Positions 2,016-25,303 of a DNA stretch of 29,231 nt are shown one piece after another (the stretch's first letter is position 1; each line of letters begins with the position of its first letter). Origin of the DNA: a virus; IMG/VR virus record IMGVR_UViG_3300021963_000496, positions 1-29,231 of that record. One strand, 5' to 3'. The translations under genes and the position numbers were made by a program. Below the pieces are notes generated by a model, which had not been told where the DNA came from, did not search any database, and saw only the letters and a list, made by a program, of their open reading frames with translations.

Positions 2016-2017
2016 AT

Positions 2018-3032: not shown

Positions 3033-3039
3033 TTTATTT

Positions 3040-3060
3040 CTCCTTTAACACAGTATACCA
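3040..3060 (-). promoter_or_regulatory. Candidate extended -10 promoter and Shine-Dalgarno before the small-gene cassette
   Basis: On the minus strand TGGTATACT (3052-3060) matches an extended -10 (TGn then TATAAT with one mismatch). It lies just after the fibre stop codon and is followed by AAAGGAG (3040-3046), seven bases from the ATG at 3032. A start near 3045 would leave a short leader holding the ribosome binding site. The same nine bases recur at 25560-25568. No -35 is seen. Confidence 0.4.
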
Positions 3061-7100: not shown

Positions 7101-8225
7101 ACCATCTGGAAACCCAATTGTTGTCCCAACCGGGATTGTATTAGAGTTGGCATTAATAGAACTTGTTAAAAAAGTTGATATTTCGTAATCATTTGTTTTC
7201 TGAATTTGCCAACCGCCATATATAAAAAACTTTAAATCTTTTTTCATATATTTTCCAAACAAAGAATTTGAGCTAAATATATTAAAATTTTTACTATTAT
7301 TATTAAAACTAATAGACGCTGTTGATGACCCGCCACCAGCAATTGGGAGACTTGTTTCGTGCACATCTCTTACCTTAGAAACACTTACATCAATTACATA
7401 ATCAGTCATATCAACTTCGTATATAGGACACACCTCCTGTACCCTGGCGTTGTCTAGAGGGTTTTTAGTGGTATATACAGTTACTAGTATTTTGTTTATA
7501 GCACTGTTAGAAATGCCTTCAAGGTAGTGTGTAAAATAGTAATTATCTTCAGGTATTTCGCCATCTTGATCAAAAACAAGTGTTGATGTGTTTACATAAG
7601 CTTTTACATTGTAAGATTTAATTTGTCCATAATGTTCCGATGTAATAATTTTAATTAAATTTACCGGCCTGGCTGTAAACAGATATGTTAATACAACAGG
7701 TGTTGAAAACTCATAGCCGTTTCTAGTAGCGTGCAAGTTACTGGTGCTTTTATAAGATGACCAGTATCCGAATTCAAAGTTATCATCTAAATCCAAAACA
7801 TTTGTTTTAGAACTACTAGATGTGGGTAAACAATGCCAATTGCCATTGGCGGTAATTATATTCCCGTTAACATCTTTAGCCCCAGCAACAGCCCATGGGA
7901 ACGACTCTCTTTCAATCCCGTTAATTGATTCATTTGGTGTAAAATAAAAATCTGCTCTTTTTGATTTATTAAACAATATTTCGTTATCAGATAACGATCT
8001 TGACTCCGATAGCATTCCGTAAGCTTCGTTGATTATGTCATTATTTGTAGGCGTAGCATAAGTAGCATTGCTTGATGCTATTTCGGTATTAGCGTCAACC
8101 TTATCAATATGGCGACTATCAAGCCAATGAGCAATAACCATTGGTTTTATTTTTTGGGAAATAGCAGAAATTTTGTCTACAAAAGTATTAGATATTGGTT
8201 TATCGTAAAGTCCGTAAGTTAACAT
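4185..8225 (-). CDS. Large tail tip hub protein (Tal-like) with PA14-like and LamG-like domains
   Basis: A 1346-residue protein. An N-terminal part (~130-240) looks like a discoidin-type beta sandwich. At ~285-350 is a hub-like segment (TDYVIDVSVSKV), followed near ~430 by YVPYGVFYIDEW, a hub hallmark. Residues ~595-725 read as PA14-like: GVRVYLDKVLIINDW and LTAGKMYELRIEFF. Residues ~815-965 read as a concanavalin/LamG lectin fold: GDFTISTYVKF, LKYYVNGVLAN, IREFTIDEFVIFN. A ~75-residue beta module occurs twice (~350-430 and ~1078-1150). The C-terminus (KYGLKELVIEN, then LGDRIKISSMDSF) is typical of phage tail hub ends. Expected role: closes the tail tube and binds cell-surface glycan. I chose the ATG at 8225, which overlaps the upstream stop as TAATG with GCGAGG just before it, over a TTG at 8258 that reaches 34 bases into the previous gene. 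No peptidase or muramidase motif was seen. Confidence 0.8.
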   Translation of the reverse strand: MLTYGLYDKPISNTFVDKISAISQKIKPMVIAHWLDSRHIDKVDANTEIASSNATYATPTNNDIINEAYGMLSESRSLSDNEILFNKSKRADFYFTPNESINGIERESFPWAVAGAKDVNGNIITANGNWHCLPTSSSSKTNVLDLDDNFEFGYWSSYKSTSNLHATRNGYEFSTPVVLTYLFTARPVNLIKIITSEHYGQIKSYNVKAYVNTSTLVFDQDGEIPEDNYYFTHYLEGISNSAINKILVTVYTTKNPLDNARVQEVCPIYEVDMTDYVIDVSVSKVRDVHETSLPIAGGGSSTASISFNNNSKNFNIFSSNSLFGKYMKKDLKFFIYGGWQIQKTNDYEISTFLTSSINANSNTIPVGTTIGFPDGGGNNNFILTIDKNTINREYVLCSKNSPFLFNAVQRGYGDSIARSHNANATVHFDTFEYVPYGVFYIDEWQAASSSMVVSASLTNWSKFLNEKTFTKGFFIQDSTIPFATKNILMSSNFPEKDITYLSKPSESYTRNNAILHYNFNENIVDRDNATRTVASSLRARFVEVTSNDLVGLKDILLDANDKDLTVMEKALDIKAYFTPSLTTVSNTISTQDQAYPVALNFTTGTFTKNAGGTVTQFYNGVFDGFYIPDTSGNQSLMILINRGGVRVYLDKVLIINDWYSVESGTNSTVTLESDNYNLTAGKMYELRIEFFTGALKTGAPFQIKLKRNDSNGIDWVYSDQTITMAALDRIGSRSNQSYLSFNSGTGRWSVVPSQNQIERASRRNNAIYVGNPTLAQPGGVVSDTDNKSLLLSSNSYLRIPYDISYNVFESNSHTYTGDFTISTYVKFNANSFSGNGEFISNWNNSTPNSGFELFYNSSMHGMKVITSSGTEIISSNTALSSSSFYLMSFALKGNILKYYVNGVLANTITLTGTPISYSNKDLCIGGRGASYTSGAEVAPSTIREFTIDEFVIFNTSLSDEQNLNNYIETQMQPSDVFPFIYGNDTTAQSIIDSISLADLGRLYIDENEKARYEHYYRFFETTIDQHANVQQIFSDTTNIIDASYNVQLQTNKVVVKISGVTNNLIARQSLWRAEDPTSLGTVNLESNITSTSNTLPVSTTDKPPFPKSGYLKIDNEIIKYSNTTSNAFLLAERAQFGTVAAAHSNNALVREVLSFDIKFDKSPAFRVQNPLITNLIEPSPPLIELIKFEPNHYGAKLIIAASNATTSGSLVYVEGEDVASNVKAFASIAGIPVVVTEAKGEVVEKVAKLDDNIRKYGLKELVIENEFISNLEKAQKIADFIINKMSEPVPIINLNILPNPRIQLGDRIKISSMDSFDIINGEYWVISTDCVFSDSPSQSIVVRKVV

Positions 8226-9316
8226 TAGACCTCGCTCAGAGTAATTGAGCAATCCCAATAGTAAGTATTGGAGCTAATATCCCTTCTAACCAGGGTTTCG
8301 TTATAATTTGTCACTAATACATTATAACTTGTTTGAGTATCTGGTGTCACTCCTGATGAATCCATATTGGTAATTTTAAGCACATGGTAATCAGGGTCTT
8401 CAGCTATTGACGCAATGTAGTCTCTAGCCCACCTATTGTCAACCGTTTGCTCTTTACTATTTGGCAGATATTGCCATGAAAGCACAAAAACATTTCTACT
8501 GGCTCTTGTAGTTGATTTGTAATAACGACTTCTAGTGTTTTTAACATTAGTATTTTCAATATAAATTGGCTCAATAGAGGATTCAATAATTCTGTTATGA
8601 TTTGTTATAACCTTATCATCTATTGAAAGCAAAGTTCTAATCTGCTGCGTATCAAGGATTTCAGCTCCGCCAACAGATGGGCGATATTTGATAATTCTTG
8701 GTGTTACTGTTAAGTTGTTTAGTAAACTTGTACGAATAGTAAGAAGTATCATTTTGCCAAGAACAGACAGATCAACATGAGCAGACATTGATGACGAAAT
8801 ATGAGCTATCTTCTGAGAAATAGCCGTAACACTCAAAGCGCCACTTAATGCAGAATCTGCTTTTGCAGTTTTTATCATTTGCAAATCAGCAACATCTACA
8901 TGCCCACTAATATTTGATTGAGCATAAGCTTCTTTAAGCATTGAAACTTCCACTGATGCCCCAGAAGCCCCAATAACATCATCAAGTTGACCAAACGCAA
9001 TTTTTTCCATATCTACAGAAATACTAAGATTTGCAGAAATAGAAGCCGAAACATCCTGTCTTTCAAATACCGCTGTTAGAGATGTTGATAAAATGTTTTG
9101 AATTGAAACTGACGCATATGCAATTTTTGTTGCATTTGCAGACAATTCAGAAGCACCAGATACATCTGATTGCGCATGCAAAATTTCTGTTGCTTGAGCT
9201 GTTAATGTAAGCGATGCTGAAAGAGAAGCACTTATAGCTATTGCATCATCTGCGGTATAAAAATCATAACCGCTACTTAACGGCTCTGTTATGCTAAAAC
9301 GACTAAAATTCGCCAT
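8225..9316 (-). CDS. Tail protein: ~20-residue repeats fused to a Dit-like C-terminal domain
   Basis: A 363-residue protein. Residues ~24-187 are about eight degenerate repeats of 19-23 residues with the pattern S-x-S-G/A-x-x-x-V-S-A ... K-I-A-x-A (for example SNISGHVDVADL, DSALSGALSVTA). Such Ser/Ala-rich repeats occur in other phage tail proteins. Residues ~237-363 are a paralogue of the whole preceding 131-residue protein, sharing the landmarks HNR-x-x-ESS, SW-x-YLP, TVDNR, TL[VI]RRD and a YY-D/W-x-S-[IL]TL ending. This C-terminal unit probably forms part of the distal tail ring. The start is the ATG at 9316, one base after the previous stop and with GAGG six bases upstream, rather than a TTG at 9328. 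It lies between tape measure and hub genes, the usual place for distal tail proteins. Confidence 0.7.
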   Translation of the reverse strand: MANFSRFSITEPLSSGYDFYTADDAIAISASLSASLTLTAQATEILHAQSDVSGASELSANATKIAYASVSIQNILSTSLTAVFERQDVSASISANLSISVDMEKIAFGQLDDVIGASGASVEVSMLKEAYAQSNISGHVDVADLQMIKTAKADSALSGALSVTAISQKIAHISSSMSAHVDLSVLGKMILLTIRTSLLNNLTVTPRIIKYRPSVGGAEILDTQQIRTLLSIDDKVITNHNRIIESSIEPIYIENTNVKNTRSRYYKSTTRASRNVFVLSWQYLPNSKEQTVDNRWARDYIASIAEDPDYHVLKITNMDSSGVTPDTQTSYNVLVTNYNETLVRRDISSNTYYWDCSITLSEV

Positions 9317-9317
9317 A

Positions 9318-9713
9318 TTAAGCCTCAACCAAAGTTAAAGAAACATCGTAATAACTGCATTGCGTTGAAAAATCTCTTCTAATTAAAGTTTTAGAATAAG
9401 AATCAACATAACATGTATACTCATCATACGGACCATCAGGAACAGTCTGTATAGCAACCGTTACGGTTCCACGAATATTACCCAAAGTTTCTAAGTAAAT
9501 CTGCCCTTTACGATTATCAACAGTTTTTGATTGAAGACTGGGTAGGTAAGACCAAGAAAAACTAAATTCTTTTTTATTATCTTTGTAGAACCTTCTTTTA
9601 TGACCACTTGCTAAATCTATATCATTTACAGACAAAAGTTCAGAAGATTCAAATGTTCTATTGTGTTCAGTAATTTCATTTCCGTTAATTAATATTAGGT
9701 TAACAATAGACAT
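9318..9713 (-). CDS. Distal tail (Dit-like) or tail ring protein, 131 residues
   Basis: A small all-beta protein directly after the tape measure gene, the standard place of the distal tail protein that joins tube to tip. Landmarks are HNRTFESS, FSWSYLP, TVDNRKGQ, TLIRRDF and a C-terminal YYDVSLTLVE. The same order of landmarks makes up the last ~125 residues of the next gene, so the two are paralogues. It is shorter than the classical ~250-residue Dit, so it may correspond only to the Dit core domain or to another ring protein. Its ATG overlaps the tape measure stop as TGATG, and AGGGG lies six bases upstream. Role by position is fairly secure; family assignment is inference. Confidence 0.65.
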   Translation of the reverse strand: MSIVNLILINGNEITEHNRTFESSELLSVNDIDLASGHKRRFYKDNKKEFSFSWSYLPSLQSKTVDNRKGQIYLETLGNIRGTVTVAIQTVPDGPYDEYTCYVDSYSKTLIRRDFSTQCSYYDVSLTLVEA

Positions 9714-12700
9714 CAGTTGCCCCTATTTAAACCATTATAAGTTGAAATAACTCTGTTTTCAAGACCGGCTGCTTTTTGATTTCTAGGCAAAATTTTTGTA
9801 TTGTACTCTTTCATCATTGACTTGAACCATTCTGGTTCTCCAACAAATGTATCAACATAAATATTTACATTTTGCGTTGAAGAACTTGCTCCGCTCATAG
9901 CTTGCAACGATGGGCTAGGTATTCTCATAGACGGAATTTCTGGGACTGAAAACTTGGCTTTATTAAGTTGTGCTAGAACAGGCATACCTATTCTTCTTAC
10001 CGCTTCTGCATTCAAAACATATTCGCCACCATGCAAGGTTGCTGGAACTGGAGTTGAAGATGATCCAGGCACAAATCCACCGGCTTTAAATTTTGGCCAT
10101 TCAATTGATGGATCTATGCCCACAGGTCTCTTGACTTTTCTAATATTCGTAACGATTTGTTCTGGATACTTCATGGCTTTAGCAACTAAATCTTCAAACG
10201 CTTCTTCTGTCATTTCTCCAAGAGAAACCGCATCAAAATCAGGAACATTTAGATACTGCGTGTCGTCTGCAAAAGAAAGCGGGTCCATTTTGAGAACCTT
10301 CACCCTTTCATATGATTGATTAAATACTCCAGTTTTAACTTTAATCCCCAACGCCAACAATCTCTTAGCAAGTTCTCTTTGCGCACGAAGTTGATTTTCT
10401 GGAGATACCATATTTATATATTCGGCACCCCAGCCCATATCGCCCACGGCACCTGCTATATTTTGTGGCCCTAGATGCTCCCGGAGCAGAGTCACCATAT
10501 TAATATTGTCCTTATCAAAGTTAATTCCTGGGAATTGAATTTCTGAATAGGCTCCAGGTAGTGTCTTGGCAAATTCTGGTTTTAGTCCGTATACGCCAGC
10601 GAGGATAGCGTCTGATAAATTTTTTGGAAGACTTTTTACAGCATCTGCTTGCTGAATTAAATTTTGCGCATATAGTCCATAACTATCTCCTACCGTATAT
10701 GTTATTTTAGAAGATGGTACTAAATCAATAATTGCTCTACCCAGCAATTTATCTAATTCAAATTCATAATTATACGCAATACCACCAAGGTCAGAAGTCA
10801 TTATTGCGCCACCTTCTCTAAAATTTGTATGGAATTTACTGTAACCAATAGCTGTGTTGAAATCATCTATATATCTCAGGTATCCGTAATTACTATTACC
10901 TTTTAAGAATGCTTCTTCTATATATTTCCTAATTCCGTTATATGCACCAGAACCGCCTGCGGCTTCAGCTGATACTCCTATCTCCTTCAAAAATTGAGTA
11001 TTGCCAAGATAACCGCTTCTAGTAGCTAGTGCTGAATCTATAACGCCCTGGTTTAGCATTGCAGCTAAATCGGATCCTCTTGCAGCCATTGAGGGAACTA
11101 CTGATGATGGTTCAAATAATTTTAATCTACTTGGACTTGGGCGGCTAAATAAGAGAGTTTCTACTTCACTCAAGGCTGGCAAAGGATAATCTGGTTTTGT
11201 TGCCAAGTGCCTTTGAAAAATTTGTTCTGCCGTTAATCCAAGTCCTGCTTTTTTTTCTACCACTTCAGATACCGCTTTGTCAATTAATTTAGCATCAGCA
11301 GCATTTCTGATATCAATTTTTCTTAAGATTGAGTTTGCTGCGGCTACTCTTATGGATGCTTCAGTTCCATTGCGATCAATTCCTGTCAAAGAAGGTTTTT
11401 TTCTAAAAAGTGTATTAGTAATTTTATTAATAAACCGATTAATTCCACTAGCATCACCGTTTGTTTTGCCAAAAAATTCTTCCCATATAGATTTAGAAGA
11501 TCTCCCTGGCAAGAAAGACTTCATTTTTTCTTTAATATTAAATTTCCATGCACTAGTGTAATTTTGTAATTGCTGCAGCGGGAATTCTTTTTTACTTAAA
11601 TTTAATAAAGGAATTTGTTGTATATCTCTTTTATGTGGTCGTAAACCAAGAGCAGACCCGGCTTTATTTACCCAATCATGATACCAAGCACCCTCCTTAA
11701 CTCTTCCGGTTGATTTATTTATCTTTTCTAAATACGAAGTAATCATTCCAGCTATTTTCATTTTTGAAGCAAGAAAATTAGAGACTTCTGCTGATTCAGG
11801 AATAATTCTTGGATCCAAACTTGGTGCTTTACCCCTGGTAAAACCTGGTTTACTTTCTTTTAATAGATTAAAAAAAACTCCTGCTGAGTCTAATACTGAT
11901 CCAAAAATTGGATCGTTTTCATTAAATACGGCAGTGCGTGATTTTGCACCAGGAGATAAATTGAGCATATCATCAATATATTTATTCCAGAAAATAAGTT
12001 CATCTTCAGAATTTAAAAGTTTTGGCATTATGCCTTGAGTCTGAAGTTTTGCTTTTGCCATTAACCTTAAAGTATTGACGCGAGGGCCTTCCGGAAGCAA
12101 AGACCCCCCACCACCTAACAAATCTAACTGGTCAAACAAATATAACAAACCTCTATCAAATTCTGATTCTTTTCCGCTAGGAAGCGCATTACTCAATGCA
12201 GGAGCGTCATTAGATATTCGCAACATAGGCCTTGGTTTTGTTTTTTCTAGTTCTCGCCACCAATTCCTGCCTATGCCCTTAAAACCATCTGCAAAAATAG
12301 TATTTTTAGTTAATGCATGCGTAATTCTTTCCCTAAGTGTTGGATTTACAGCATCAAGACCAGCAAGTCCAATATGCTGGACAAAATTATTTATACCTCT
12401 ATTAATTACCGGAGATATTGCATCTTTTAGACCAATGACTCCACCAATACCCATTTTTTCAGAAATTGCTGCACTTGCAAAGTTTCCTATTTTACTCAAA
12501 CCAGGTATTTTCACAGGAACAACAGATGTTACAACATTAAGAGCATCAACGAATCCAAATTTAGAACCGGGAGCATCTCCCTCTCTGTTTTGCAAAGTAA
12601 AGTTTTTGCCAAACATTGCGCCGATGTTTAATGGCTTCCCAGTTTGAGCTTCTTGCCTTGCTTGATAGTTGGTAATCGGATTTGATGATTTGTTAGTAAA

Positions 12701-15700
12701 CGGAGACATGGCGGCATCGGTTACTGAGCCAACAATATTGTTAATTTCATTACCTAATTTAATTGCGCTGACTCCAGCATCATTTAGCCCCCACTTCAGT
12801 ACCGATCCAAGCTCTTTTATTCCACCAGTTATTTTATTAGTATCTGTGGAGAAAATATCCATAACACTTCGCCCAACAGGCTTGCCCTGCGCAACAGCTT
12901 TAGCGTAATTCAAACTTAACTTCTTATTAGCTTCGCTTTCCCCCGCAAAAGTCATTGCTGATGTTGGGTAAACTTTGGGCAAAGGTGCATTGGTTTTACC
13001 CAACATTGCCCTTTCCATCATGTCTGCACTTTTACCTCGTAGAGCACTACCAGTTGGGATTTTTCCGACAAATCCGCCTTTCTTAAAATACGGAATGCGG
13101 TTATCATTCATTTTTGTTAAAGCACCAACACCAATTCTTTCAACAGCTTTAGCGTTAAGGACAAACTCACCACCATGCAATATTGCTGGTATTGCGGTAT
13201 TAGGCGATCCACTAGTATAGCCGCCTTCTGCATAGCCTTTGACCGGAACCATACCGCCAGCTGAAAACTGAAAAATACCACCAATTCTTCCAGTGATACC
13301 TTTAATTACGCTATACACCGGGTTATTAGTAACATTTCTAGCAAACCAGTTTGTTATATTTCTCCAAGTATCTTGTAGACCTGTAAATAAATTATCCCAA
13401 ACCCCGCTTAATCGTTTTCCGATATCAGCCATAAATCCGCCAACAGCGGTGGGCATAGATACTGTAAACCAGTTTGTTATATTATTCCATGTGGTGATTA
13501 AGTTAGCATGTAAGCCATTCCATGCGCCTCTTAAATTATTTGTAATTCTCTCAGGCAATGAAGCCAACCATGGGGACAGTTCTTCATTCCAATAGTTCCT
13601 TACTCTTTCCCAAGCAGCTGTCATCATTTTGCCCAATGCAGTTGCTGCTAACAAATTCAAAGGACCAATTATTGCTATTGACAGCAGCATCAGCAAGTTA
13701 TCTTTTACAAAAGAAGCCATTGAATTACCAATTTGTTTCATAATTTCTTTAAAAATTTTACTAAGGGCGGGGACAGCAACTGCTACAACTTTGTCTACAA
13801 TTTTGTCTGGATCAAAAGCTTTATCAACCGCAGTGTTAATTTGACGCTCCATGTTATCCACACTGCCGTTTAATTTAGATCTTAATTTTTCATTAAATGC
13901 TATAATTTGCCTTTCCATATTGTCGGCCGAACCAAAGGCAAACGCTGGTTTTTTAATAACATTTATTGGTTCTGGCTTACTTGGGTCTTCAAACTGGAAT
14001 CCAGGTTCTTTTGCACCAGATTCAGATCCAGACCCATCTCCTTTTTCTTCTTCACGAATTGTTTCAAGTGTTATTTTAATTGTAGCTAAACTCTCAAGTT
14101 CTTTTATAAGAGTTTCAAATTTAGTTTTAAATTCACTAAATATATCACCCTTAAGACCAGCGATTGTTCTCTTTATCCCGGCAATCATTGCATTTACAGC
14201 ACGAATACCTGCCTGATCCCACATTGTAGTAATGGCTTCGGATGTTGTAGTGGTGGTCAATAAAGTCTTAATAGCATCCATTGTTGGAGTAACATACTGC
14301 GGAATTACGCTGGCATTAAACGCCGATTTGAAAGCATCAGTGACTCCATTTGCCATATAATAAGCAGCGCCAAGAATTGATTTCGGATCCTTAACATTTC
14401 CTGTTGCTCCAAATTTTTGTGCGGCAATATCAACCAGTGTGTTGAAATCTGTATCAAACAACTTAATTGCTGAGTTTAAGGATTTAGAAATAGCGCTTGG
14501 TAACTCGTTCATAGAACCACCAAATATGGTGGCCATTTGCTCTGAGAAATCAACCCCTATACCGCCAAGGTTTTTAAGCGCTTTTTCAAATTCTTCTTTT
14601 GAGGCAAAACCTTTTTCTTTCAAAAGCTCAACTTGCTCATCAAATTGCTCTTCAAGAAGATCAAATTGCTTTTCAAGCTGTTCTTTTTGATTTGCTATAA
14701 CAGCTTTTGCAATCTCTCTTTGTTCAGCCTGAAGATCCCTGTTGTATCCTCTGTCAAGATCAAGCAATTCTTTATCTGCTGATTCTTTTGATTTTCTTTC
14801 TTCGGCATCAAGCCTTCTTGCGTCTTCGTAACGACCTTCGTATATAGCAAGCTTTCTTTCACGAATATAATTTTCAACATCAGTAGCTCTATTGCGTATC
14901 ATCTCCCTACGCTTTTCTTCATAGTCCATCTTCTTTGTCAATTTTTCTTCAGCCTCAGCTAAAGCATCAATACCAGCAGACATGTCATCAAAAGCATCAA
15001 GAGCATTTTCTCTTTGCTTATCAAGCTGTTTTTTAATGTTGTTAGTAACTTTATCAAACTGATCGTCAAGATTACTAAACAGTTTTTCTGTAAATTCAAC
15101 TTGTAAATCCAAAAGACCATTCTTTATTCCTTTACCAATTTTACTAGCTAGACTTTCACCACCATCAATAGCAGCTGGAGCTGCCTTCTTTACAGCTTGT
15201 TTAATTTCATCAGCTATAGCGCCGGGATTTTTGAAAATTTTAACTAATGGAGTATTTAACGAAACCCCCATAATTTTTTGATATGCAGTAGCAATTTTGT
15301 TTTGAACAATTTTGGCTTTGTCACCAACTTTAACAAAAGTTTCTCCAACTTTATTAGAAAACGCTGTGCCTATTTTTGTAGCGCTACCAACAATACTTGC
15401 TCGGTTTTTCTTTAATGTCTGCTCTACGCCTATAATCGCAAGAGAAGCTGCACCAGCAGCACCGGCAAGCCCAAGTAGCGGTGCCCCCAATGGTCCGCCA
15501 AACGCCGTAACTAAACCACCAATTATTCCAAAAGCAGCTGTTGCTGCAATTGCAATTGACTTAAAGCCCTCAAGTATATAAAGGGTAAATCCTATAAATT
15601 TGTCAACTATGTAACCAAAAAATTTTCCAATTATACCCGAAGCAGATTGAAATAAATTACCGATACCTCTTAGTGCAATTCCAATAATACCAACAATGTC

Positions 15701-18700
15701 ATGTCCTATAGAGAACAAAAATCCTTTAAAGTTCTTTATGGCCGTTTCTGTTTCGCCAGTAAAAGCAGCACCAATCGCCCTTTTAAGCATAATAAATTTA
15801 TTTATAATTCTAGCAATAAATGGAGCAAAAGTATTAGTCATGAAAGATTTTCCAACACCTTCAGAGAATTTCTTAAATGCCTCAGAAACTTGCTTTATAA
15901 AATAAGCAAGTGTTGCAAAAGCACCAGCAGATTTTTCTGCTTGATTTTGTGCACCAGTATTATTAAACCCACCAAATCCTTGTATAACATCCAAAATTGG
16001 ATTGACTAAATTCATAATTGCTTGTCTTAAATTATTAAACGCTTCTTTCAAATAATTTATTGCTACAGAAGAACCCTGCCCCATACTCTTAAATGTTGCA
16101 AATACAGCACCTATCAAGAGAACAATTGGGGAAAGTATAGTTAATACCATAAGCAATTTAACAAACATTGCCGCAGCTTGACCAACAGCTGAACCTACAC
16201 TTTTAACAACAGCAGCAGTGCCTGTTTTAAATACAGCTGGCGTACCCATTGCAATTTTTTTAGATCTAGACAAGGAACTTACCCTGTTTGCCGCCTCTTG
16301 CGCAGTAATTTGCTCCCCAGCCCTTGAGGCTGCTTTTGTAACTTTTTGCAAAACACTTTGCGCCGCAGCTACTTTATAAATTTCTTTACTGAACAAACCC
16401 ATTTTAGATGCCGCACGAGTTGCTCTTAATCCAACAGTTGATAAACCGGCGGTAAACATAAACAAAAACGGAGCCAACAGTCTGCTGTTGTGTAATGAAG
16501 AAAAGAATGTTGAAACAGCAGTTCTTGGAAGAATGGCGCTTGCTTTAGCTATGGATGTTAAACCACTTGCAACTTTTTTAAGATTTTCGCCAGAACCTAC
16601 ACTTGCAATTTTTTTACCCAAAAACTGCATTGCTCTACCAGCTGTATACGCTTTAGAGAATTGATCAAAAAAGTTTTTCCCAAATGGAATTTTGCTAAAA
16701 TATGGCTTTATATTTTGCACCCTTGTTGCCTTGACAGCTCTTTGTTTCATTTCGGCAGATTCCAATAATCCAAAAGGTTTAAATCTAGGCTGCACATCGT
16801 CTTCGTATTGGAACTTGCTTGTATCAACTTTAGGGGTTGCTCTAATGTTTCGTGTTCTATCCAAATTGTCTACAAACTTAATATTCTTTATCTTATCCCC
16901 ATCAAGAAAAGAGTTACCAATGAATTGGTTTGGACCTTTAAATAAGTTTGGTCCAGTAAATACATTTGCAAAAGCTGTATCTATTTGAACTTCTAATGCA
17001 TCAGCGGCATCACCAATATTTTTTGCAAATACTTTTGTAGCGCCATTTATATTGGTTTTAATATCTTCAGCAGCATCTTGCATTTTGCTGGCAGCTCCAC
17101 TTAGGTTATTTGGTATATCTATACCTCTTAAATCAGCACCTTGCAAAAACCCCGGATATCTTAAAGGAGTAGTTGATACAGGGACAGAGGCTTGTGATAA
17201 AACTTTTGCTGCTTTAGCAGGAGATACATTTAAAGCTTGCTGTACAGTAGAAATTAATTGTGTTGATTTTTTCAATTCTCCTGCAAACTTTGCAGCGGAT
17301 TTTGCACTCATACCTGAAGCTCTTTCAATATCAGCACGAGCCTTTCTTATAATTTTTGAAATTGAACCATCAGCAATGCCTTCTTTAATAACTTTAGTTC
17401 CAGGTCCCTTTATTGCACTAACTGGTAGGGCTTTTAATGCTTTTGTAATTTCACCTAAATCAGATGTCATTGCATCAAGAGCGTTAACAACTGGCTTAAT
17501 TGTTTGAGTAGAGGCTTGAATTGCTGCTTGACTAGCTGCTTGTATAACTGGACCGGGTGCCAAATTTGCTGGAGCAGCTGGAGTTGGGGCAACAAGTTGT
17601 TTATTGCTAAGATTATTTAAAGCATTAGCTAATTTTTGTAAATCGGGTCTAGCTTCATCAAGACTATTAGATACATTCTTAACAGCATCCTTGACTTCAG
17701 CCCCAGTTGTTGCTGGAATCTGTGCAGATTCTTTAATATCAATAAGATTTTGTACAAGATTATCAATTGCGCTCTTATCCATTAACTCCGGAGCAAGATA
17801 TCCTGGCAAAAGATTTTTTTGTCCTCTTAGCCTGCTCGCCCTTACTTCAACTTGTTTAGCAACGACATCTCCTTGAATTGCAGGAAGACCAGCTACTTTT
17901 TCTACATCAGCATCTCTTAAGCCAGCAACTGCTTGGAATAAAATTTGCCTGATGAGCATTCTCGCAAAACGCTCTTGCACTTCTTTGCTTGCGGATGCAA
18001 TTGGACCTCTAGACAAAACTTCTGTTATCAATTTATTAAAATTGTCTTTTGATTTTCCACCAACAACATCAAACGATCTTAAGTCATCAATAATCGCTTT
18101 TACATCAGGGGTAAGTGCTTGACCTCTAGGCATTAACTGCCTCATCCTGTTCATTATGCTACCGGTTCTACCAGTCTCTATTTTATCTATTGCATCTTGA
18201 GCCGCCATGATCATTGCTTTCTCTATATCAGCAACCTGATCACCAACAGATTGAAGTAATAAGTTAGACCAGCTCCCAGGAGCCAATGACATCATTTTTT
18301 GCATTGTTTCTTTAATAATTGCAATTTCAACGGGTATAGAAGTTCCTTTCGCAACAGTTGCTGCCGCTGATGAAATAACCAATGCTTTGCCAAGCATTTT
18401 TGTATCATTTGTTATGCCATCAATAATATTATTCATTACAGTTGCGTATGTTATTTGCGCGTTTTCAGCTGACATTTTTATTGAACGATATACATCCAAA
18501 GAAGTAACTTTAGGCGAAACACGAGATAAATTAGCCCTTGCTTTTCTCTGTATTTCGGCTTCTTTTTCTAGCAACAACTGATCAAAAACAGCCATTCTTG
18601 ATTCAGCTGTGCCTGGTAGTACTTGAGGGGTTAGTTCAAAATCTCTATTAGTAAACGGCAATTGCTTAACTCTAAGATTGTATTCTTTCAAAAATTCTTC

Positions 18701-21700
18701 ACTACTTGTAATTTCTTTTATCGCCTTGTCTCTTGCTTGTTTTATTTCAAGCAATTGATTGCGATCCATCAATTCTTCAACTGGTCTACCGGGTATATTT
18801 CTTATATCAATCGGTCTAGCCAATTCATGATAAAGTTTTTGAGTCATTACCCTTACTTTTTCAACTGCTGGTCCAATAGATTTAGCTGGTACCTGAGCAG
18901 CAATTCTCTTTACTTCGTCAAAGTAGTGGTACATCGGCTCTACCATCATTCCCGACATCAGCATGTCATCTAATTGCTCATAATGCCTCAAGACAGAATT
19001 GTTAAAAGAAACCAAAGATTTTTTTTGAGCGGCTATTGCTCTTGCGTAAGCCCTTCTTATTTCACCTTGTCTTTCATATGATTCACTTGGATTAAAACCC
19101 TCAAAACCCCTACCTGCGGGGTCAAATCCTTCAAAACTAGATGCTTCAGCAAGATCCAGGGATTTATTAATCCCCTCTGTCATTTCATCAAAACTTCTCT
19201 CTACAGAGTCTATTACTCTTCTTTTAACATTTGTCAACTCTGCAACTTTTGCTTCTAGTTGTTTTTCAGAAATATCATAATCCGAAACTTTTATTCTCGG
19301 TCTAGTTGGAGCAAGTTTGGGAGATATTTCTTGTGGTTGAATAGGAACACTTTCTCCAAGTAAATTGGTTGTTGTAAGAAGATATTGCCCAGTAACAGGG
19401 TTTTTTTGAGTTAAAAATTTGTATTTTTCATTTCTAGTTGTTAGTGCTGGTTCACCAGCTTTCTTTCTTCTCTTATTTTCTGCCCGTATTAAAGCTTGAT
19501 GTTGTTTTTGATTATATTCTCTAAGAACTTTTAATTCCTCAAACTGTTCATTTGAAAGTTGTTGAGCCAATCTAATTCTGTCGGCAGCAGCTTTATTTCT
19601 TGTAGCAATATCTTCAGCCAATGCTTGCGATTCTTTTATTGCTTGCTCTCTGCTCAGACCATGATATCTTTCCAAAGCTTTTAGCGCATCACCCCTACCC
19701 TCGGTATCACTTTTTACCCGCTGTAGCAATAATCGTTTAGCAAAAGCAACTTCACGCATAGCACCAATTGAGCCATATGGTCCTGTAATTTTTGGCATAT
19801 CCGATTCTTTGATTCCAAAAATATATTTAGTTGGAGGAATCATAGATGTAACTATTTGAGAAGCAATTCTTTGTTTTGTATTTAAAATTTGTTTCTGAAC
19901 AGATCTCCTGATTCGCTCAATAGCGCTATCTTTTACATCAAGCCCCAAAACATTTTGCCTAACAGCGGCTAGATCTGACACTAGGAGATCAGCAGTTTGT
20001 TTAATCGCCCTGTCTAAATCAGCAGCTTCAAATAGTGCATTTGCATTTCCTTTTTTAATTCCATCAAGCAATAAGTGAGAGCCATAACGAGAACTTAATA
20101 GTGAATCAAGCAATAATCTATTTCTATTAGCTGAATATTCCAAAAGTTTTTGAGTAAAGATTTGTTCTCTTTTAATGGCTCTTGCAATTTCAAAATCAGC
20201 TCTTTGATTTTTATATTTTCTAACTTTTTCAACTTCTTCTGCGTAGTTAGCCAAATCTTCTTGAGACAACTGTTCAAGATTGTCTATATTTACATACCCT
20301 TTTCTTTTCTTCCTAACTGTCGGTAACTTACTTCTAACAGAAGGATCTTGGAGCGCAAGGCGATCAGATTCTCGTTTTAACCTATCTATATCTTTTTTAG
20401 ATATATTAGACAAATCAGGGCGACCATATCTTTCCCCTAAAGATTGTTTACCATACTTGATTTCATCAAGCACTCTCTGGGTAATATCGGATCCATAAAT
20501 TCCAGACCCAGCTAATTTTGCAAAGAGCCTTTGAGTTTGATCAGTAAGATTTGTTTTTACTGCCGAGGAACCAAATTCCCTGATTCTTTTTGCCCCAGAT
20601 TTTGGAAAAATTTGAACAATATCAGCAACATACTCTTCTCCATCACGAAGTGTTCTTTTAACAACTCTAAGAAGTTTATCGCCTTTTTGTATAGCTTTAA
20701 AAATTTGTTGTTTAATTGTAAAAGGTACTTCAAATACTTCACTACCAAGAACGCTAGTTAAATTTTTTAAATAATCAGGAATGCCTTTACCAAGTATATA
20801 AAACGCATCTTTTATTTCACTAGCGGTAATAGTTGTAAGACCGGCTTTAAGAAGCTGACTATTTGAAGCATTCACCAACTCATCAAAAACTTTTCCAGTT
20901 CTTAATCTTGCGTCTAGTGTATCAAAAAATTTAGGAGTGTCTGGAGTAAAATACTCGGGAGCTGTGGGGGCTGAAAACCTTGCGTCTGTAGCATATCTGC
21001 TAGGGGTGCTAACACCGACTTGGCCAAGTGCTTGAGAAATTACAGCAGCTTTGGAAATTGTTTTTGCAAAATTTGTATTATAAGAATCAAGTGCGGCTTT
21101 AAATCTATATAAATCAAAAGGTGGAGGAAATTGTGGACCATAAAATGGTCTTGTGTCTGGAGTTGCTACTTTATTACCGTATCTAATTCCAAATCTTTGA
21201 CCACCCGGACTTCCACCACCACCGCCACCTGCTGGGTTTACAAATGGAGCAGAAGGACCACTTCCGGGTCTCCCTTTGCCTGGTCCGAATTGATTACCTT
21301 CAGCATTGCCAATAAAAGTGTTGCCAATAAATTCGTTTGGTCCTTTAAATATATGCCCAACAGTTTTTGATATTTTTGAAGCTGCATTTTTTGCTGTTTT
21401 TTCGGCAGTTGTAGCAGAATCCTTAATTGACTTATCTACTTTCTTAACAGCATCAGCAACTTTGTTTGTATTCTCAGAATTAGAATTAATACCGTTTTGA
21501 AGATCACGAACAAACGCCGTTGTGCCTGGCAATATTTTTTCAAATTTTTTAATAAAACTGTCAACTAATCTCTTCCCACCAGACTCAAGAACACGACTTC
21601 CACCAGTTCCGCCTGGAACAGCTTTTGCCTGTCGCAAAAATTCTACTGTCTCTGGTGATAGACCAGACAGATCAGGCATTCTGCTTCTTGATGCAAATCT

Positions 21701-23902
21701 ATCAAAACGATTAGGAATTTTTCCTTCTGTATAAAAAGCTTGGCTGTCTGGAATTTGAACAACTTTTTTAAATTTTAAAATATCAGGGCGACTAAGAATA
21801 TCTTTAATATCCAAAATCTCTTTTTTGGCTTTGCCAAAACCAAGCAAACTTGCTCCTCTCATTGAAGCAAACATTCCTTGAATTGTTTTTAAAGTTCCTA
21901 AAAATATTTTAAATGGACCAGTCAGTGCCAATATAACAAGAAGACTGCCCAATACCCTTTTGACACCTTGTGGTAAGTTTTGCACAATCGCTGCAAATTT
22001 TTGAACTACCGGAACAAGGAAAGCAACAATGCTGTCAACAATCGGCACAATAGCGCGACCTATTTGCAATAAGCCTTCTTTCAACTGTCTGTACCTCACC
22101 TCTGGTGATTTTTGAGCCAAAAGCAATTCAGTTTCAACCATCAAACCAGCCATTTCATTTACATCAAAAGCTTGCGCAAGGAAAATTTTTGCAACTTCGG
22201 TTTGTGTGTTTCCTAAAAAGTCAGCATTTTGTGTAGACTTCAAAGCCATTTCTTTTAATTTATTTTGAGCGTCTATTTGACCTTTTTGAACGGCTGCAGC
22301 CAAAGCGGTTTGCTTATCTGTTCCTTTAATTGTTGATGTAGCCATTTTATTTATTCTTGATAAATCCTCAATAGTATTAACAGAAATAGTATTGAATCCT
22401 TTCAATTTCAATTGCATGTTAATGCTTTGTTCTAATTGTTTTGCAATAATATTTTCTTGCGTTTGCTGAATCCCTGGCGCTCTTGCCTTGCCAAGATTAC
22501 TTAAAGCGTCTTGGAATTGAGCTAGTTGCGAAATAGATGTTGCCATACGGGGTCCTTGGCGAACACCAAACAATCTTGAATAGAATTCAAGGACACCTTG
22601 TTGCCCTTTATTATCTTTCAAAGCATTAAATCCATCTACAAGTAGCTGAATATTACTTATACCAACACCTGACGAGTAGCTAAACCCATCCATACTGTTG
22701 GATAAACTATCCACCATTTGTTGATTTTGCTTTGTCATTGCGTTCATTCTCTGTAGAGAAACTTTCACCGAGTTTGCTGATGCACCAAGCTGAAAACCAG
22801 CCGCAACCATAGGAGTTACTAAAGCAATAGCCTCAGTCATGCTAAGACCAAATAAGTTTGCCGCAGCAGAAACTTCAGGGAATGCTTCCGATATGTTTCT
22901 CAAAGACATAACAGTTTTGTTTTCAACAAGGTTGAACATAGCCATCTGACCTCGCAATGTGGCAGCTATGCTGTCGGATACTTCTTTGGTATTCAAGTCA
23001 ACACTCATCCCAAGATCTCTTCTTGATTTCAAAATGTTTTGATACATTGAAGAAACAAATTCTTGCGATGCGGTAATATCCAGATTACCAAGTTTTTCCA
23101 TTTCTGCTGTAATCAAAACCATTGTTGACAACATATCTTTACTGGAAATTCCAAGTTCTGCGTAATCACCAGCCAAGGATTGAACAAGTAATCTTGAGAT
23201 ACCCCACTTTGCAGTTATCTTATCTAGCTCAACACCTAACTCAGCAACAGCTTTTTTTGCTAAATCAATATTTGAAGCCGTAGCCGTTCCAACAAAATTA
23301 TCGGCCAACAATTTTGTAACTCTAATATTTTGCGTTTCTAACTTTGCATAATTATAAAACACTTCTCTTAAGCCATAAATAATTGGAGCAGAAAAGTTTC
23401 TTGAAAAATAATAACCAGATTGCTGAGCAGCCATGCCAAAAGCTCTAAGCTGTTGACCGTAATTTCTTAAATCGTTACCTCTTACAACTCTATTAAAAGC
23501 TTTTTGATTAATTAAAGCAGAATTTAGGTGAGATGAATATTGCTGTAAGTATTGTCCAAATTGAGGGTTTGCTATATTAGCAGCTTTAATTGCACTAAGA
23601 TTTTTCTGTAAAAAATCAGCTTCAACTCTTGCGTTTTTAAGAGATTGCTCAAGTATTTGAATATTTCTTGAATATTTACCAACTTCAGCACTTGCCTTTG
23701 ACGAACCAGATGCTGTCAATCCTAAAGCTTTATTCAAAGAACTTGTTAAATTACTAGCACTCTGCGCCCTTGTTGCCAAAGATGCAATATTCTGAGCCAG
23801 GATTTGAAGCTGGTTATTGATGATAGCCGTAGCAGAGGTAGCGTTGTCTGTGACAACGGCATTTATATTAATTGACGCTTCATTCCCGCTAACATCAGAC
23901 AT
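9713..23902 (-). CDS. Giant tail tape measure protein, 4729 residues
   Basis: One unbroken frame of 14.2 kb. Residues ~150-700 match the phage tail tape measure core (TP901-1 type), including SEAFPEVSAAANLFGLSMTE near 350 and a hydrophobic segment near 654 (VLGSLLVILALTGPFKIFL). A Gly/Pro linker follows near 880-900, then ~1400 residues of charged helix. Further hydrophobic segments lie near 2590, 2800 and 3410. A charged coiled coil with AIYEGRYEDARRLD spans ~2945-3097. Trp-rich repeats (WNNITNWF, WRNITNWF) lie near 3450-3520. The motif LHGGE[FY]VLNA occurs at ~3579 and ~4622; the C-terminus (NIYVDTFVGEPEWF) is typical. It contains no Cys. The protein sets tail length, helps assemble the tube and is expelled on infection. 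At ~0.15 nm per residue the tail would be near 700 nm. I saw no lysozyme or peptidase motif. The start lacks a Shine-Dalgarno. Confidence 0.95.
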   Translation of the reverse strand: MSDVSGNEASININAVVTDNATSATAIINNQLQILAQNIASLATRAQSASNLTSSLNKALGLTASGSSKASAEVGKYSRNIQILEQSLKNARVEADFLQKNLSAIKAANIANPQFGQYLQQYSSHLNSALINQKAFNRVVRGNDLRNYGQQLRAFGMAAQQSGYYFSRNFSAPIIYGLREVFYNYAKLETQNIRVTKLLADNFVGTATASNIDLAKKAVAELGVELDKITAKWGISRLLVQSLAGDYAELGISSKDMLSTMVLITAEMEKLGNLDITASQEFVSSMYQNILKSRRDLGMSVDLNTKEVSDSIAATLRGQMAMFNLVENKTVMSLRNISEAFPEVSAAANLFGLSMTEAIALVTPMVAAGFQLGASANSVKVSLQRMNAMTKQNQQMVDSLSNSMDGFSYSSGVGISNIQLLVDGFNALKDNKGQQGVLEFYSRLFGVRQGPRMATSISQLAQFQDALSNLGKARAPGIQQTQENIIAKQLEQSINMQLKLKGFNTISVNTIEDLSRINKMATSTIKGTDKQTALAAAVQKGQIDAQNKLKEMALKSTQNADFLGNTQTEVAKIFLAQAFDVNEMAGLMVETELLLAQKSPEVRYRQLKEGLLQIGRAIVPIVDSIVAFLVPVVQKFAAIVQNLPQGVKRVLGSLLVILALTGPFKIFLGTLKTIQGMFASMRGASLLGFGKAKKEILDIKDILSRPDILKFKKVVQIPDSQAFYTEGKIPNRFDRFASRSRMPDLSGLSPETVEFLRQAKAVPGGTGGSRVLESGGKRLVDSFIKKFEKILPGTTAFVRDLQNGINSNSENTNKVADAVKKVDKSIKDSATTAEKTAKNAASKISKTVGHIFKGPNEFIGNTFIGNAEGNQFGPGKGRPGSGPSAPFVNPAGGGGGGSPGGQRFGIRYGNKVATPDTRPFYGPQFPPPFDLYRFKAALDSYNTNFAKTISKAAVISQALGQVGVSTPSRYATDARFSAPTAPEYFTPDTPKFFDTLDARLRTGKVFDELVNASNSQLLKAGLTTITASEIKDAFYILGKGIPDYLKNLTSVLGSEVFEVPFTIKQQIFKAIQKGDKLLRVVKRTLRDGEEYVADIVQIFPKSGAKRIREFGSSAVKTNLTDQTQRLFAKLAGSGIYGSDITQRVLDEIKYGKQSLGERYGRPDLSNISKKDIDRLKRESDRLALQDPSVRSKLPTVRKKRKGYVNIDNLEQLSQEDLANYAEEVEKVRKYKNQRADFEIARAIKREQIFTQKLLEYSANRNRLLLDSLLSSRYGSHLLLDGIKKGNANALFEAADLDRAIKQTADLLVSDLAAVRQNVLGLDVKDSAIERIRRSVQKQILNTKQRIASQIVTSMIPPTKYIFGIKESDMPKITGPYGSIGAMREVAFAKRLLLQRVKSDTEGRGDALKALERYHGLSREQAIKESQALAEDIATRNKAAADRIRLAQQLSNEQFEELKVLREYNQKQHQALIRAENKRRKKAGEPALTTRNEKYKFLTQKNPVTGQYLLTTTNLLGESVPIQPQEISPKLAPTRPRIKVSDYDISEKQLEAKVAELTNVKRRVIDSVERSFDEMTEGINKSLDLAEASSFEGFDPAGRGFEGFNPSESYERQGEIRRAYARAIAAQKKSLVSFNNSVLRHYEQLDDMLMSGMMVEPMYHYFDEVKRIAAQVPAKSIGPAVEKVRVMTQKLYHELARPIDIRNIPGRPVEELMDRNQLLEIKQARDKAIKEITSSEEFLKEYNLRVKQLPFTNRDFELTPQVLPGTAESRMAVFDQLLLEKEAEIQRKARANLSRVSPKVTSLDVYRSIKMSAENAQITYATVMNNIIDGITNDTKMLGKALVISSAAATVAKGTSIPVEIAIIKETMQKMMSLAPGSWSNLLLQSVGDQVADIEKAMIMAAQDAIDKIETGRTGSIMNRMRQLMPRGQALTPDVKAIIDDLRSFDVVGGKSKDNFNKLITEVLSRGPIASASKEVQERFARMLIRQILFQAVAGLRDADVEKVAGLPAIQGDVVAKQVEVRASRLRGQKNLLPGYLAPELMDKSAIDNLVQNLIDIKESAQIPATTGAEVKDAVKNVSNSLDEARPDLQKLANALNNLSNKQLVAPTPAAPANLAPGPVIQAASQAAIQASTQTIKPVVNALDAMTSDLGEITKALKALPVSAIKGPGTKVIKEGIADGSISKIIRKARADIERASGMSAKSAAKFAGELKKSTQLISTVQQALNVSPAKAAKVLSQASVPVSTTPLRYPGFLQGADLRGIDIPNNLSGAASKMQDAAEDIKTNINGATKVFAKNIGDAADALEVQIDTAFANVFTGPNLFKGPNQFIGNSFLDGDKIKNIKFVDNLDRTRNIRATPKVDTSKFQYEDDVQPRFKPFGLLESAEMKQRAVKATRVQNIKPYFSKIPFGKNFFDQFSKAYTAGRAMQFLGKKIASVGSGENLKKVASGLTSIAKASAILPRTAVSTFFSSLHNSRLLAPFLFMFTAGLSTVGLRATRAASKMGLFSKEIYKVAAAQSVLQKVTKAASRAGEQITAQEAANRVSSLSRSKKIAMGTPAVFKTGTAAVVKSVGSAVGQAAAMFVKLLMVLTILSPIVLLIGAVFATFKSMGQGSSVAINYLKEAFNNLRQAIMNLVNPILDVIQGFGGFNNTGAQNQAEKSAGAFATLAYFIKQVSEAFKKFSEGVGKSFMTNTFAPFIARIINKFIMLKRAIGAAFTGETETAIKNFKGFLFSIGHDIVGIIGIALRGIGNLFQSASGIIGKFFGYIVDKFIGFTLYILEGFKSIAIAATAAFGIIGGLVTAFGGPLGAPLLGLAGAAGAASLAIIGVEQTLKKNRASIVGSATKIGTAFSNKVGETFVKVGDKAKIVQNKIATAYQKIMGVSLNTPLVKIFKNPGAIADEIKQAVKKAAPAAIDGGESLASKIGKGIKNGLLDLQVEFTEKLFSNLDDQFDKVTNNIKKQLDKQRENALDAFDDMSAGIDALAEAEEKLTKKMDYEEKRREMIRNRATDVENYIRERKLAIYEGRYEDARRLDAEERKSKESADKELLDLDRGYNRDLQAEQREIAKAVIANQKEQLEKQFDLLEEQFDEQVELLKEKGFASKEEFEKALKNLGGIGVDFSEQMATIFGGSMNELPSAISKSLNSAIKLFDTDFNTLVDIAAQKFGATGNVKDPKSILGAAYYMANGVTDAFKSAFNASVIPQYVTPTMDAIKTLLTTTTTSEAITTMWDQAGIRAVNAMIAGIKRTIAGLKGDIFSEFKTKFETLIKELESLATIKITLETIREEEKGDGSGSESGAKEPGFQFEDPSKPEPINVIKKPAFAFGSADNMERQIIAFNEKLRSKLNGSVDNMERQINTAVDKAFDPDKIVDKVVAVAVPALSKIFKEIMKQIGNSMASFVKDNLLMLLSIAIIGPLNLLAATALGKMMTAAWERVRNYWNEELSPWLASLPERITNNLRGAWNGLHANLITTWNNITNWFTVSMPTAVGGFMADIGKRLSGVWDNLFTGLQDTWRNITNWFARNVTNNPVYSVIKGITGRIGGIFQFSAGGMVPVKGYAEGGYTSGSPNTAIPAILHGGEFVLNAKAVERIGVGALTKMNDNRIPYFKKGGFVGKIPTGSALRGKSADMMERAMLGKTNAPLPKVYPTSAMTFAGESEANKKLSLNYAKAVAQGKPVGRSVMDIFSTDTNKITGGIKELGSVLKWGLNDAGVSAIKLGNEINNIVGSVTDAAMSPFTNKSSNPITNYQARQEAQTGKPLNIGAMFGKNFTLQNREGDAPGSKFGFVDALNVVTSVVPVKIPGLSKIGNFASAAISEKMGIGGVIGLKDAISPVINRGINNFVQHIGLAGLDAVNPTLRERITHALTKNTIFADGFKGIGRNWWRELEKTKPRPMLRISNDAPALSNALPSGKESEFDRGLLYLFDQLDLLGGGGSLLPEGPRVNTLRLMAKAKLQTQGIMPKLLNSEDELIFWNKYIDDMLNLSPGAKSRTAVFNENDPIFGSVLDSAGVFFNLLKESKPGFTRGKAPSLDPRIIPESAEVSNFLASKMKIAGMITSYLEKINKSTGRVKEGAWYHDWVNKAGSALGLRPHKRDIQQIPLLNLSKKEFPLQQLQNYTSAWKFNIKEKMKSFLPGRSSKSIWEEFFGKTNGDASGINRFINKITNTLFRKKPSLTGIDRNGTEASIRVAAANSILRKIDIRNAADAKLIDKAVSEVVEKKAGLGLTAEQIFQRHLATKPDYPLPALSEVETLLFSRPSPSRLKLFEPSSVVPSMAARGSDLAAMLNQGVIDSALATRSGYLGNTQFLKEIGVSAEAAGGSGAYNGIRKYIEEAFLKGNSNYGYLRYIDDFNTAIGYSKFHTNFREGGAIMTSDLGGIAYNYEFELDKLLGRAIIDLVPSSKITYTVGDSYGLYAQNLIQQADAVKSLPKNLSDAILAGVYGLKPEFAKTLPGAYSEIQFPGINFDKDNINMVTLLREHLGPQNIAGAVGDMGWGAEYINMVSPENQLRAQRELAKRLLALGIKVKTGVFNQSYERVKVLKMDPLSFADDTQYLNVPDFDAVSLGEMTEEAFEDLVAKAMKYPEQIVTNIRKVKRPVGIDPSIEWPKFKAGGFVPGSSSTPVPATLHGGEYVLNAEAVRRIGMPVLAQLNKAKFSVPEIPSMRIPSPSLQAMSGASSSTQNVNIYVDTFVGEPEWFKSMMKEYNTKILPRNQKAAGLENRVISTYNGLNRGN
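13343..13483. repeat. Direct 18-base repeat within the tape measure gene
   Basis: The 18 bases AAACCAGTTTGTTATATT occur at 13343-13360 and 13466-13483, 123 bases (41 codons) apart. They code for the repeated N-I-T-N-W-F segment of a Trp-containing helical repeat common near the C-terminal part of tape measure proteins. The spacing keeps frame, so this is an internal protein duplication rather than a separate DNA element. Confidence 0.8.
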
Positions 23903-23949: not shown

Positions 23950-24336
23950 TTACTGCTTGTTATCATATAATTCAGGGAACGCCTGCCTTCTATCTTCATC
24001 TGTAGCCATACCAAACCCAGTAATACCTTTAGACTGTAATTCCATAGCTGTCGCCCCGGCTTTCATTGGCTTAGGTGCAGGATCGTACCAGTCTTCTTCA
24101 AAATCAACATCAGCGCCTTGCGCTGCTGCGGCAATTTTCATGCTCGTAGAAGTTTCATTCGTGCAAGCGCGATATAATAAAAACAGTTCGTTTAGCGTTA
24201 GACTGTTTTCTAATTCATACAAGTTCAACCATGAACCAGTTTTAACAAACAACTCTGATTCATACTTGAGGAGAGGAATATCCTCCCAACCGAGAGGTTC
24301 TCCATCCTCTCCGCTTACAAGGAAGGGTCTGACCCC
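23950..24336 (-). CDS. Tail assembly chaperone, frameshifted downstream part (gpGT-like)
   Basis: This frame carries a typical chaperone T part: GWEDIPLLKYE, FVKTGSW, SLTLNELFLLYRAC, AAQGADVDFEEDWYDP. It has no ATG near its beginning, and the protein-like reading continues upstream of the first possible TTG (24252) into the overlap with the G gene, open back to 24354. A -1 shift in 24354-24318 would join it to the G frame; GGGG at 24333-24336 (minus strand) is the best slip point I see. The fusion would be about 226 residues (99 + 127). The G and GT products coat the tape measure during tail assembly, in a ratio set by frameshifting. Its position just before the tape measure gene fits. The exact slip site is uncertain; the shift itself I regard as very likely. 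Confidence 0.85.
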   Translation of the reverse strand, partial: GVRPFLVSGEDGEPLGWEDIPLLKYESELFVKTGSWLNLYELENSLTLNELFLLYRACTNETSTSMKIAAAAQGADVDFEEDWYDPAPKPMKAGATAMELQSKGITGFGMATDEDRRQAFPELYDNKQ

Positions 24337-24629
24337 ATTGCGGCTGCCATTACTTCACCGAATGAACGCAAGTCAAGCACATCTTCAAGAGCTTCCTTGT
24401 TATTGGCAAGTTCTGGATCAACAACTGACAGAGCAATGCCTGCAGCTTCAACCATAACATCAATGTCAGCATCAGACAACGAATCTTCAGTCTTGAGGTC
24501 TTTAACGACTTTCATAAACTTACGAAGAGTGCGGATTGTCAATGGCTTAATTACACGAACCTTACCATCAGCAAATAGAATTTCTCTACCGGCCAAAATA
24601 TCTTTATTTATATTACCCAATTTAATCAC
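24315..24629 (-). CDS. Tail assembly chaperone, first frame (gpG-like)
   Basis: A 104-residue, helix-rich, acidic-tailed protein located between the major tail protein and the tape measure gene, which is diagnostic for the tail assembly chaperone. The segment VRVIKPLTIRTLRKFMKVVK (25-44) is the typical basic start of the chaperone helical core, and the C-terminus ends with LRSFGEVMAAAMGSDPSL. The start is GTG with AAGGA eight bases ahead; an ATG is not available in frame at that point. It makes the short, frequent product, while a fraction of ribosomes shift into the next frame. It follows the hairpin at 24656-24700, so part of the major tail transcripts may end before it. Confidence 0.85.
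   Translation of the reverse strand: MIKLGNINKDILAGREILFADGKVRVIKPLTIRTLRKFMKVVKDLKTEDSLSDADIDVMVEAAGIALSVVDPELANNKEALEDVLDLRSFGEVMAAAMGSDPSL
24318..24354 (-). other. Probable -1 programmed frameshift window in the chaperone genes
   Basis: Both chaperone frames are open only between 24354, after a TGA in the T frame, and 24318, before the TAA of the G frame. The relation of the frames requires a -1 (or +2) shift. Within it are ATG-GGG-TCA with four G (24333-24336), where a GGG-reading tRNA can re-pair perfectly, and a CCCTTCC run downstream as an alternative. A standard X-XXY-YYZ heptamer is not present. Confidence 0.6.
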
Positions 24630-24736: not shown

Positions 24737-25303
24737 TTACGTTTGGTCAACAATTTTGCCGTACTCATAACCACTGTCTGCAATGGTTGGAAGAATACGG
24801 AAGCCTACCGTAAACATTGTTGCCTCGGCACGCTTCATTGAAATCATTGATGATTCCATTGAAACAGCACGCTTAGCATAGAATTTACGAGTCTTAATTG
24901 CTACTGCACTTGAGCCTGGGGCTGCGCCGGTTACTACGATTCCCTTCTCATTTGGGTATACCGATTGGGTACCAAAATTGAAAGTTTGTGTAGATGCACC
25001 ATCTTGTGCCGAAACGATGTCGCCATCGTCATAGTTCCAAGCTGTTGTAAGGTTTGTCAAAGTTCCTTCTGCAAGGGTTGTCTTCAACATAACCTTTACT
25101 TTTGATTGAATCAACTTAGCGGCATCGCCAAATTGATCAACTTCAATGTCAACCACTTCTGGTTCCCACGAAATTTCAACACCGTTTGATGTTGCACCAA
25201 CATCTGTAAAGCTGTTCATGTTTGCGATTGATGTTGCGTTTGCGTTAGTGCCAAGCTTAATTGTAGCTTCACCAACAACAATATTTGCTACTGTTACTGC
25301 CAT
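24737..25303 (-). CDS. Major tail tube protein
   Basis: A 188-residue beta-rich protein without Cys, located just before the tail assembly chaperone pair. The segment DVGATSNGVEISWEPEVVDI (34-53), followed by EVDQFGDAA, is characteristic of siphovirus tail tube proteins, in which it leads into the inner beta barrel. The middle (TLTNLTTAWNYDDGD) and the Lys/Arg-rich strand near 140 fit the same fold. The protein would polymerise into hexameric rings around the tape measure. It has the strongest ribosome binding site in the window (AGGAGG, seven bases from the ATG) and a terminator-like hairpin after it, both fitting a very highly expressed gene. Other structural roles are unlikely. Confidence 0.9.
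   Translation of the reverse strand: MAVTVANIVVGEATIKLGTNANATSIANMNSFTDVGATSNGVEISWEPEVVDIEVDQFGDAAKLIQSKVKVMLKTTLAEGTLTNLTTAWNYDDGDIVSAQDGASTQTFNFGTQSVYPNEKGIVVTGAAPGSSAVAIKTRKFYAKRAVSMESSMISMKRAEATMFTVGFRILPTIADSGYEYGKIVDQT

Follow-up and report, generated by a model that had tools for sequence, protein, structure and literature searches.

The locus described here raises the question of whether one uninterrupted frame of 4,729 codons can be a single phage tail gene and, if so, how such a gene has reached this size and how long a tail it would specify. The window, i.e. the whole stretch of DNA analysed, is an entire linear IMG/VR record (IMGVR_UViG_3300021963_000496) of 29,231 bases, and the genome is therefore incomplete. 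An earlier note, made from the letters alone, had read the frame as an exceptionally long tape measure protein (TMP), close in size to the largest known and sufficient for a tail of about 700 nm.

The reading frame and its tail gene neighbourhood

Judged by its sequence and setting, the frame at 9713-23902(-) is a real, very large tape measure protein gene. The Pfam domain PhageMin_Tail (PF10145) matches above the cut-off (36.4 bits versus 33.2), seven PHROG tape measure families, 167 and 5448 among them, match various parts of the protein (best E 8.7e-26), and hydropathy identifies hydrophobic segments of the kind expected in a siphophage TMP at residues 611-672, 2569-2608, 2776-2827 and 3401-3424. 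The position is likewise that of a siphophage TMP, between the tube protein and chaperone pair on one side and the distal tail genes on the other (Table 1). The single unbroken frame and the tape measure identity claimed in the earlier note are both borne out, the former by the lack of any internal stop, by dN/dS values of 0.06-0.47 depending on region, i.e. purifying selection at the protein level, and by collinear intact frames in independent IMG/VR contigs from other samples (4,484 aa in G001, 4,398 aa in G004 and 4,587 aa in G005 and G006), the latter by the domain and family matches and the gene order.

The predicted neighbours fit a siphovirus tail operon, with the order tube protein, chaperone pair with a -1 overlap, TMP, 131-aa protein and larger tail tip proteins. 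The overlap DNA around 24331-24338 (ATGGGGTC) is identical in five phages, as is the DNA that closes the first chaperone frame there (GCAATGGGGTCAGACCCTTCCTTGTAAGCGGAGAGGATGG), and this stretch is likely a -1 programmed frameshift site. A 133-aa minor tail protein is found in Streptomyces phage NootNoot at the position matching that of the 131-aa protein. Elsewhere in the window, an HNH endonuclease (900-1340(-)) lies between tail genes, a 2OG-Fe(II) oxygenase (PF13640; 2018-2614(-)) is located in the tail fibre region, and a 9/18-bp tandem repeat (3152-3225) codes for a run of residues rich in Gly and Val, close to the terminus of a tail fibre-like protein.

Table 1. Tail genes of the window and segments of the TMP, in window positions.
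Feature	Position	Strand	Remarks
Major tail (tube) protein candidate	24737..25303	(-)	PHROG 2175/885/476
Tail assembly chaperone, first frame (GTG start)	24315..24629	(-)	Putative, from position; matches function-less PHROG 10504
Tail assembly chaperone, second (-1) frame	23950..24252	(-)	Putative; open across the first frame's stop in -1
Tape measure protein (TMP)	9713..23902	(-)	4,729 aa, ATG start to stop
N-terminal conserved core, residues 1-865	21308..23902	(-)	28-95% identity in full-length relatives
PhageMin_Tail domain, residues 232-432	22607-23209	(-)	Pfam
Variable middle, residues 866-2300	17003..21307	(-)	Mostly unalignable beyond closest relatives
Second conserved core, residues 2300-3300	14003..17005	(-)	Hydrophobic segments 2569-2608, 2776-2827
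Motif copy 1, GG..IPAILHGGEFVLNAKAVERIG, residues 3557-3599	13106..13234	(-)	Motif at residue 3576
C-terminal cassette, residues 3600-4604	10091..13105	(-)	Without counterpart in L003
Motif copy 2 and C-terminal anchor, residues 4605-4729	9716..10090	(-)	Family-wide
131-aa distal tail component	9318..9713	(-)	Directly downstream of TMP; family marker
Tail protein	8225..9328	(-)	C-terminal part paralogous (34%) to the 131-aa protein
Tail tip/fibre protein	4185..8258	(-)	PA14 and Laminin_G_3 domains

Conserved cores and an exchangeable cassette

The TMP is laid out as N-core, middle, second core, motif, cassette, motif and anchor. Residues 1-865, about 2300-3300 and 4605-4729 are conserved among relatives, and residues 866-2300 and 3300-4604 are variable. 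In the alignment, the last 125 residues combine the motif HGGE[FY]VLNA (the last A not always being present) with a strongly conserved terminus. Identity to L004 drops to ~27% in 17873-21307, the flanks being 85-98% identical, and this part of the middle is probably a separately replaced or fast-evolving segment. AlphaFold returned pLDDT values of 34 for the cassette and 36 for the middle, too low for an assignment of fold or helicity.

Comparison with relatives shows the C-terminal cassette, a block of about 1,000 residues flanked by the two motif copies, to be exchangeable within the ruler gene. In L003, 91% identical to the window over residues 552-3599, the motif runs directly into the anchor with no cassette between them; the TMP length of ~3,680 aa given for L003 presumes a window-like 5' part, and L003 and L006, which share a sample and meet end to end at residues 549/552, were kept as separate genomes. 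The first ~600 residues of the cassette are common to L025, L007, G006 and G020, and no homologue of residues ~4225-4570 was found in the sequences searched. No known domain was matched when the cassette was compared with Pfam, NCBIfam, PHROGs and PDB sequences, nor is a peptidoglycan hydrolase domain recognisable in the window TMP. With a dN/dS of 0.47, compared to 0.06-0.16 in the cores, the cassette is under weaker protein-level constraint, and it is also richer in Pro and Gly and lower in helix propensity than the cores.

How such blocks may be gained is illustrated by G014, whose TMP carries two cassettes and three copies of the motif. At the DNA level, the stretches following copies 1 and 2 agree at 88% over 144 nt, and those at copies 2 and 3 agree at 90% over 101 nt. 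As these repeats link the middle copy to both copies 1 and 3, it constitutes a joint between two types. Joints of this kind are as expected from cassette insertion or duplication by recombination at the motif. From this one genome we infer that motif recombination is a general route of growth, suggesting that the ruler lengthens by about 1,000 residues at a time (a predicted ~0.16 micrometre each). In the window, the DNA of the two motif copies has diverged far more than in G014, and its cassette event, if due to motif recombination, would therefore be old.

Relatives, slot contents and the likely host

A search with the C-terminal anchor recovered at least 214 IMG/VR contigs that encode a relative. 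Among contigs long enough to hold the gene, the TMP frames range from 2,706 to 6,438 aa, many falling at 4,100-4,650 aa. The window TMP ranks third among the measured family TMPs, behind G014 (also L127; IMGVR_UViG_3300020193_000009, TMP 228-19541(-), 6,438 aa) and G020 (also L128; IMGVR_UViG_3300032321_001056, TMP 188-16261(-), 5,358 aa). The scale of what was called exceptionally long and near the largest known was right, but the protein is no exception within its own family, and both G020 and G014 exceed the 5,002 residues of phage P23-45. No close isolate of the family was found in 50,697 phage records, and no published description of it in the literature searched.

The slot filled by the cassette in the window holds different contents in other members. 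The Rpf-like transglycosylase domain PF06737 is found in that of G006 (E 1.8e-7) and, weakly and below the cut-off, in that of G015, and the endolysin profile phrog_90 in those of L031 and G004. Metzincin-like zinc-protease signatures (HExxH and a SIMSY Met-turn) are present in the G014, G020 and G046 cassettes, the full HExxHxx[GN]xx[HD] pattern occurring in G020 and G046 with zero expected by chance from shuffled sequences; in G020 the site reads HEFGHIGGFDHPH...SIMSY. In G001, L026 and L030 the slot is occupied by hydrophobic Trp-rich helical repeats. An ADP-ribosyltransferase in the L031 cassette (4199-4801; LHRG/FRSTSTS/NEREILLPP) was considered on a likeness noted by eye and set aside as evidence, as it found no backing in Pfam, PHROGs or PDB. 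A domain with the pattern VHETPY...RDTVHFALNHxVxGH is common to the cassettes of L007, L025, G004, G006, G014, G015, G017 and G047 and is not part of that in the window.

The host is most likely an actinobacterium, at the level of the phylum (Actinomycetota) and as judged from relatives only, since 13 of the 15 long relatives encode WhiB, which in a control of 14 genomes matched only Corynebacterium. WhiB was not found in the window itself, an incomplete record of 29,231 bases, and a search for the host by prophage or WhiB across 84,980 genomes returned nothing. The tail sheath domain PF04984, matched in three control genomes, was absent from 15 records, which include contigs of 80-109 kb and may be incomplete; the lack of a sheath gene points to siphoviruses.

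Predicted tail length and the role of the cassette

Published phages offer several calibrations of TMP against tail length. Deletions in TP901-1 yield a slope of 0.153 nm per residue, 127 residues making no contribution (PMC5099701), Tsamsa combines a TMP of 3,123 aa with a tail of 440 nm (PMC3903500), Hotorobo a 9,984-bp TMP gene with a tail of ~540 nm (PMC4982279), and P23-45 a TMP of 5,002 aa with a tail of >800 nm (PMC10770324, PMC9022992). Applied to 4,729 residues, these predict a tail of 667-766 nm, and applied to G014 one of 908-1,043 nm. The 0.15 nm per residue assumed at the outset is of the right scale, and ~700 nm was a sound estimate.

We consider it probable that the window encodes the TMP of a siphovirus of Actinomycetota which unites a ruler with a C-terminal cargo cassette, is lengthened or shortened at the motif, and specifies a tail of ~0.65-0.77 micrometre. 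For the orientation, ejection, cargo and length we infer the following course. The TMP would lie extended inside the tail tube, the C-terminal anchor held at the tail tip by the 131-aa neighbour and the N-core at the head end, and polymerisation of the tube would halt at the length of the TMP. On infection the TMP would exit first, its hydrophobic segments helping to build a DNA channel, and the C-terminal cassette would be delivered as cargo, which in relatives may consist of peptidoglycan hydrolases or metzincin-like proteases. The length of the ruler would change by ~1,000-residue steps via recombination at HGGE[FY]VLNA. Cleavage by proteases could leave a shorter effective ruler.

The strongest competing explanation, although an unlikely one, places the cassette outside the ruler, folded in the tip hub or cleaved off, so that ~3,600-3,700 residues would measure a tail of ~0.52-0.6 micrometre. 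It gains from the cassette-free TMP of the 91%-identical L003, and from the composition of the cassette and its place next to the tip anchor. Against it, the tail of TM4 becomes ~20 nm shorter on loss of a 114-aa hydrolase motif from its TMP (PMC1796659), indicating that embedded domains may count towards tail length; by this analogy, siblings with and without the cassette are therefore predicted to differ by ~160 nm. Less probable still is that the entire length is tape and that the extra 1,000 residues serve no other function. The scaling of tail with TMP length across published phages is in keeping with this plain reading, as are the Trp-rich repeats of G001, L026 and L030, which are typical of tape, but the hydrolase and protease signatures in the slots of several relatives and the separate exchange of cassettes argue against it. 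What stands of that reading, which was also the original one, is the tape measure protein as such, and what does not is a ruler of uniform nature, about 1,000 residues being exchangeable. Finally, an assembly chimera or frame artefact, the refutation foreseen by the earlier note, is very improbable even for a single metagenomic contig known from its assembly: a chimera of unrelated pieces is ruled out by the selection along the frame and by the collinear intact frames in independent contigs of comparable length from other samples, except for the last ~350-380 residues of the cassette, for which the sequences searched gave no homologue and across which the frame remains open into the conserved anchor, L025 and L007 having the same anchor after their cassettes.

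Returning to the reading of the TMP as ruler plus cargo, its main interest lies in the record lengths of the relatives and in the motif-bracketed, exchangeable cassettes. The G014 and G020 rulers exceed that of P23-45, the longest among the published rulers compared. It is conceivable, though we hold it only tentatively, that the family builds the longest phage tails known, up to about 1 micrometre for the 6,438-residue ruler, through exchangeable cargo cassettes of ~1,000 residues stacked at the motif; if true, tail length would shift in quantal steps of ~0.16 micrometre tied to the injected payload. Natural close pairs that differ in the presence of a ~1,000-residue cassette make the question of whether cargo counts towards length testable, and motif-to-motif recombination within the ruler gene is suggested as a route to new injected enzymes.

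The Thermus phages P23-45 and P74-26 resemble the window in having a giant single-chain TMP with hydrophobic segments and a tail near a micrometre in length (predicted for the window), and the tape of P23-45 is fused to enzymatic domains (PMC10770324), comparable to the enzyme signatures in the slots of relatives. In P23-45 this is an N-terminal RNA polymerase with a DxDxD motif, whereas the cassette of the window is C-terminal; a fusion of the P23-45 type was rejected, no DxDxD being present in the 4,729 residues. The TMPs of the mycobacteriophages TM4 and Barnyard contain embedded Rpf-like or mt3 hydrolase motifs, comparable to the PF06737 matches above, but those motifs are small, the one in TM4 comprising 114 aa, and reside inside ordinary TMPs, unlike the cassettes of about 1,000 residues, bracketed by motifs and variable in number, of the present family. 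The Gordonia phages Hotorobo, Woes and Monty are, as the family most likely is, actinophage siphoviruses, with extremely long tails of ~540 nm (PMC4982279); their TMP of about 3,327 aa is shorter than that of the window, and Gordonia phage records gave no tblastn match. The best isolate matches are Streptomyces phages of the genus Samistivirus such as NootNoot (27% identity in the TMP N-core and 29% in the C-terminus of the tail fibre), which share with the window the order TMP, ~130-aa minor tail protein and large minor tail protein, but have a TMP of only 2,095 aa. The Sle1-type CIS effectors of Actinobacteria also join a TMP-derived carrier to exchangeable C-terminal functional domains (PMC13277306), like the family TMP, but are part of a contractile particle and consist of a coiled coil of about 440 residues rather than a phage ruler.
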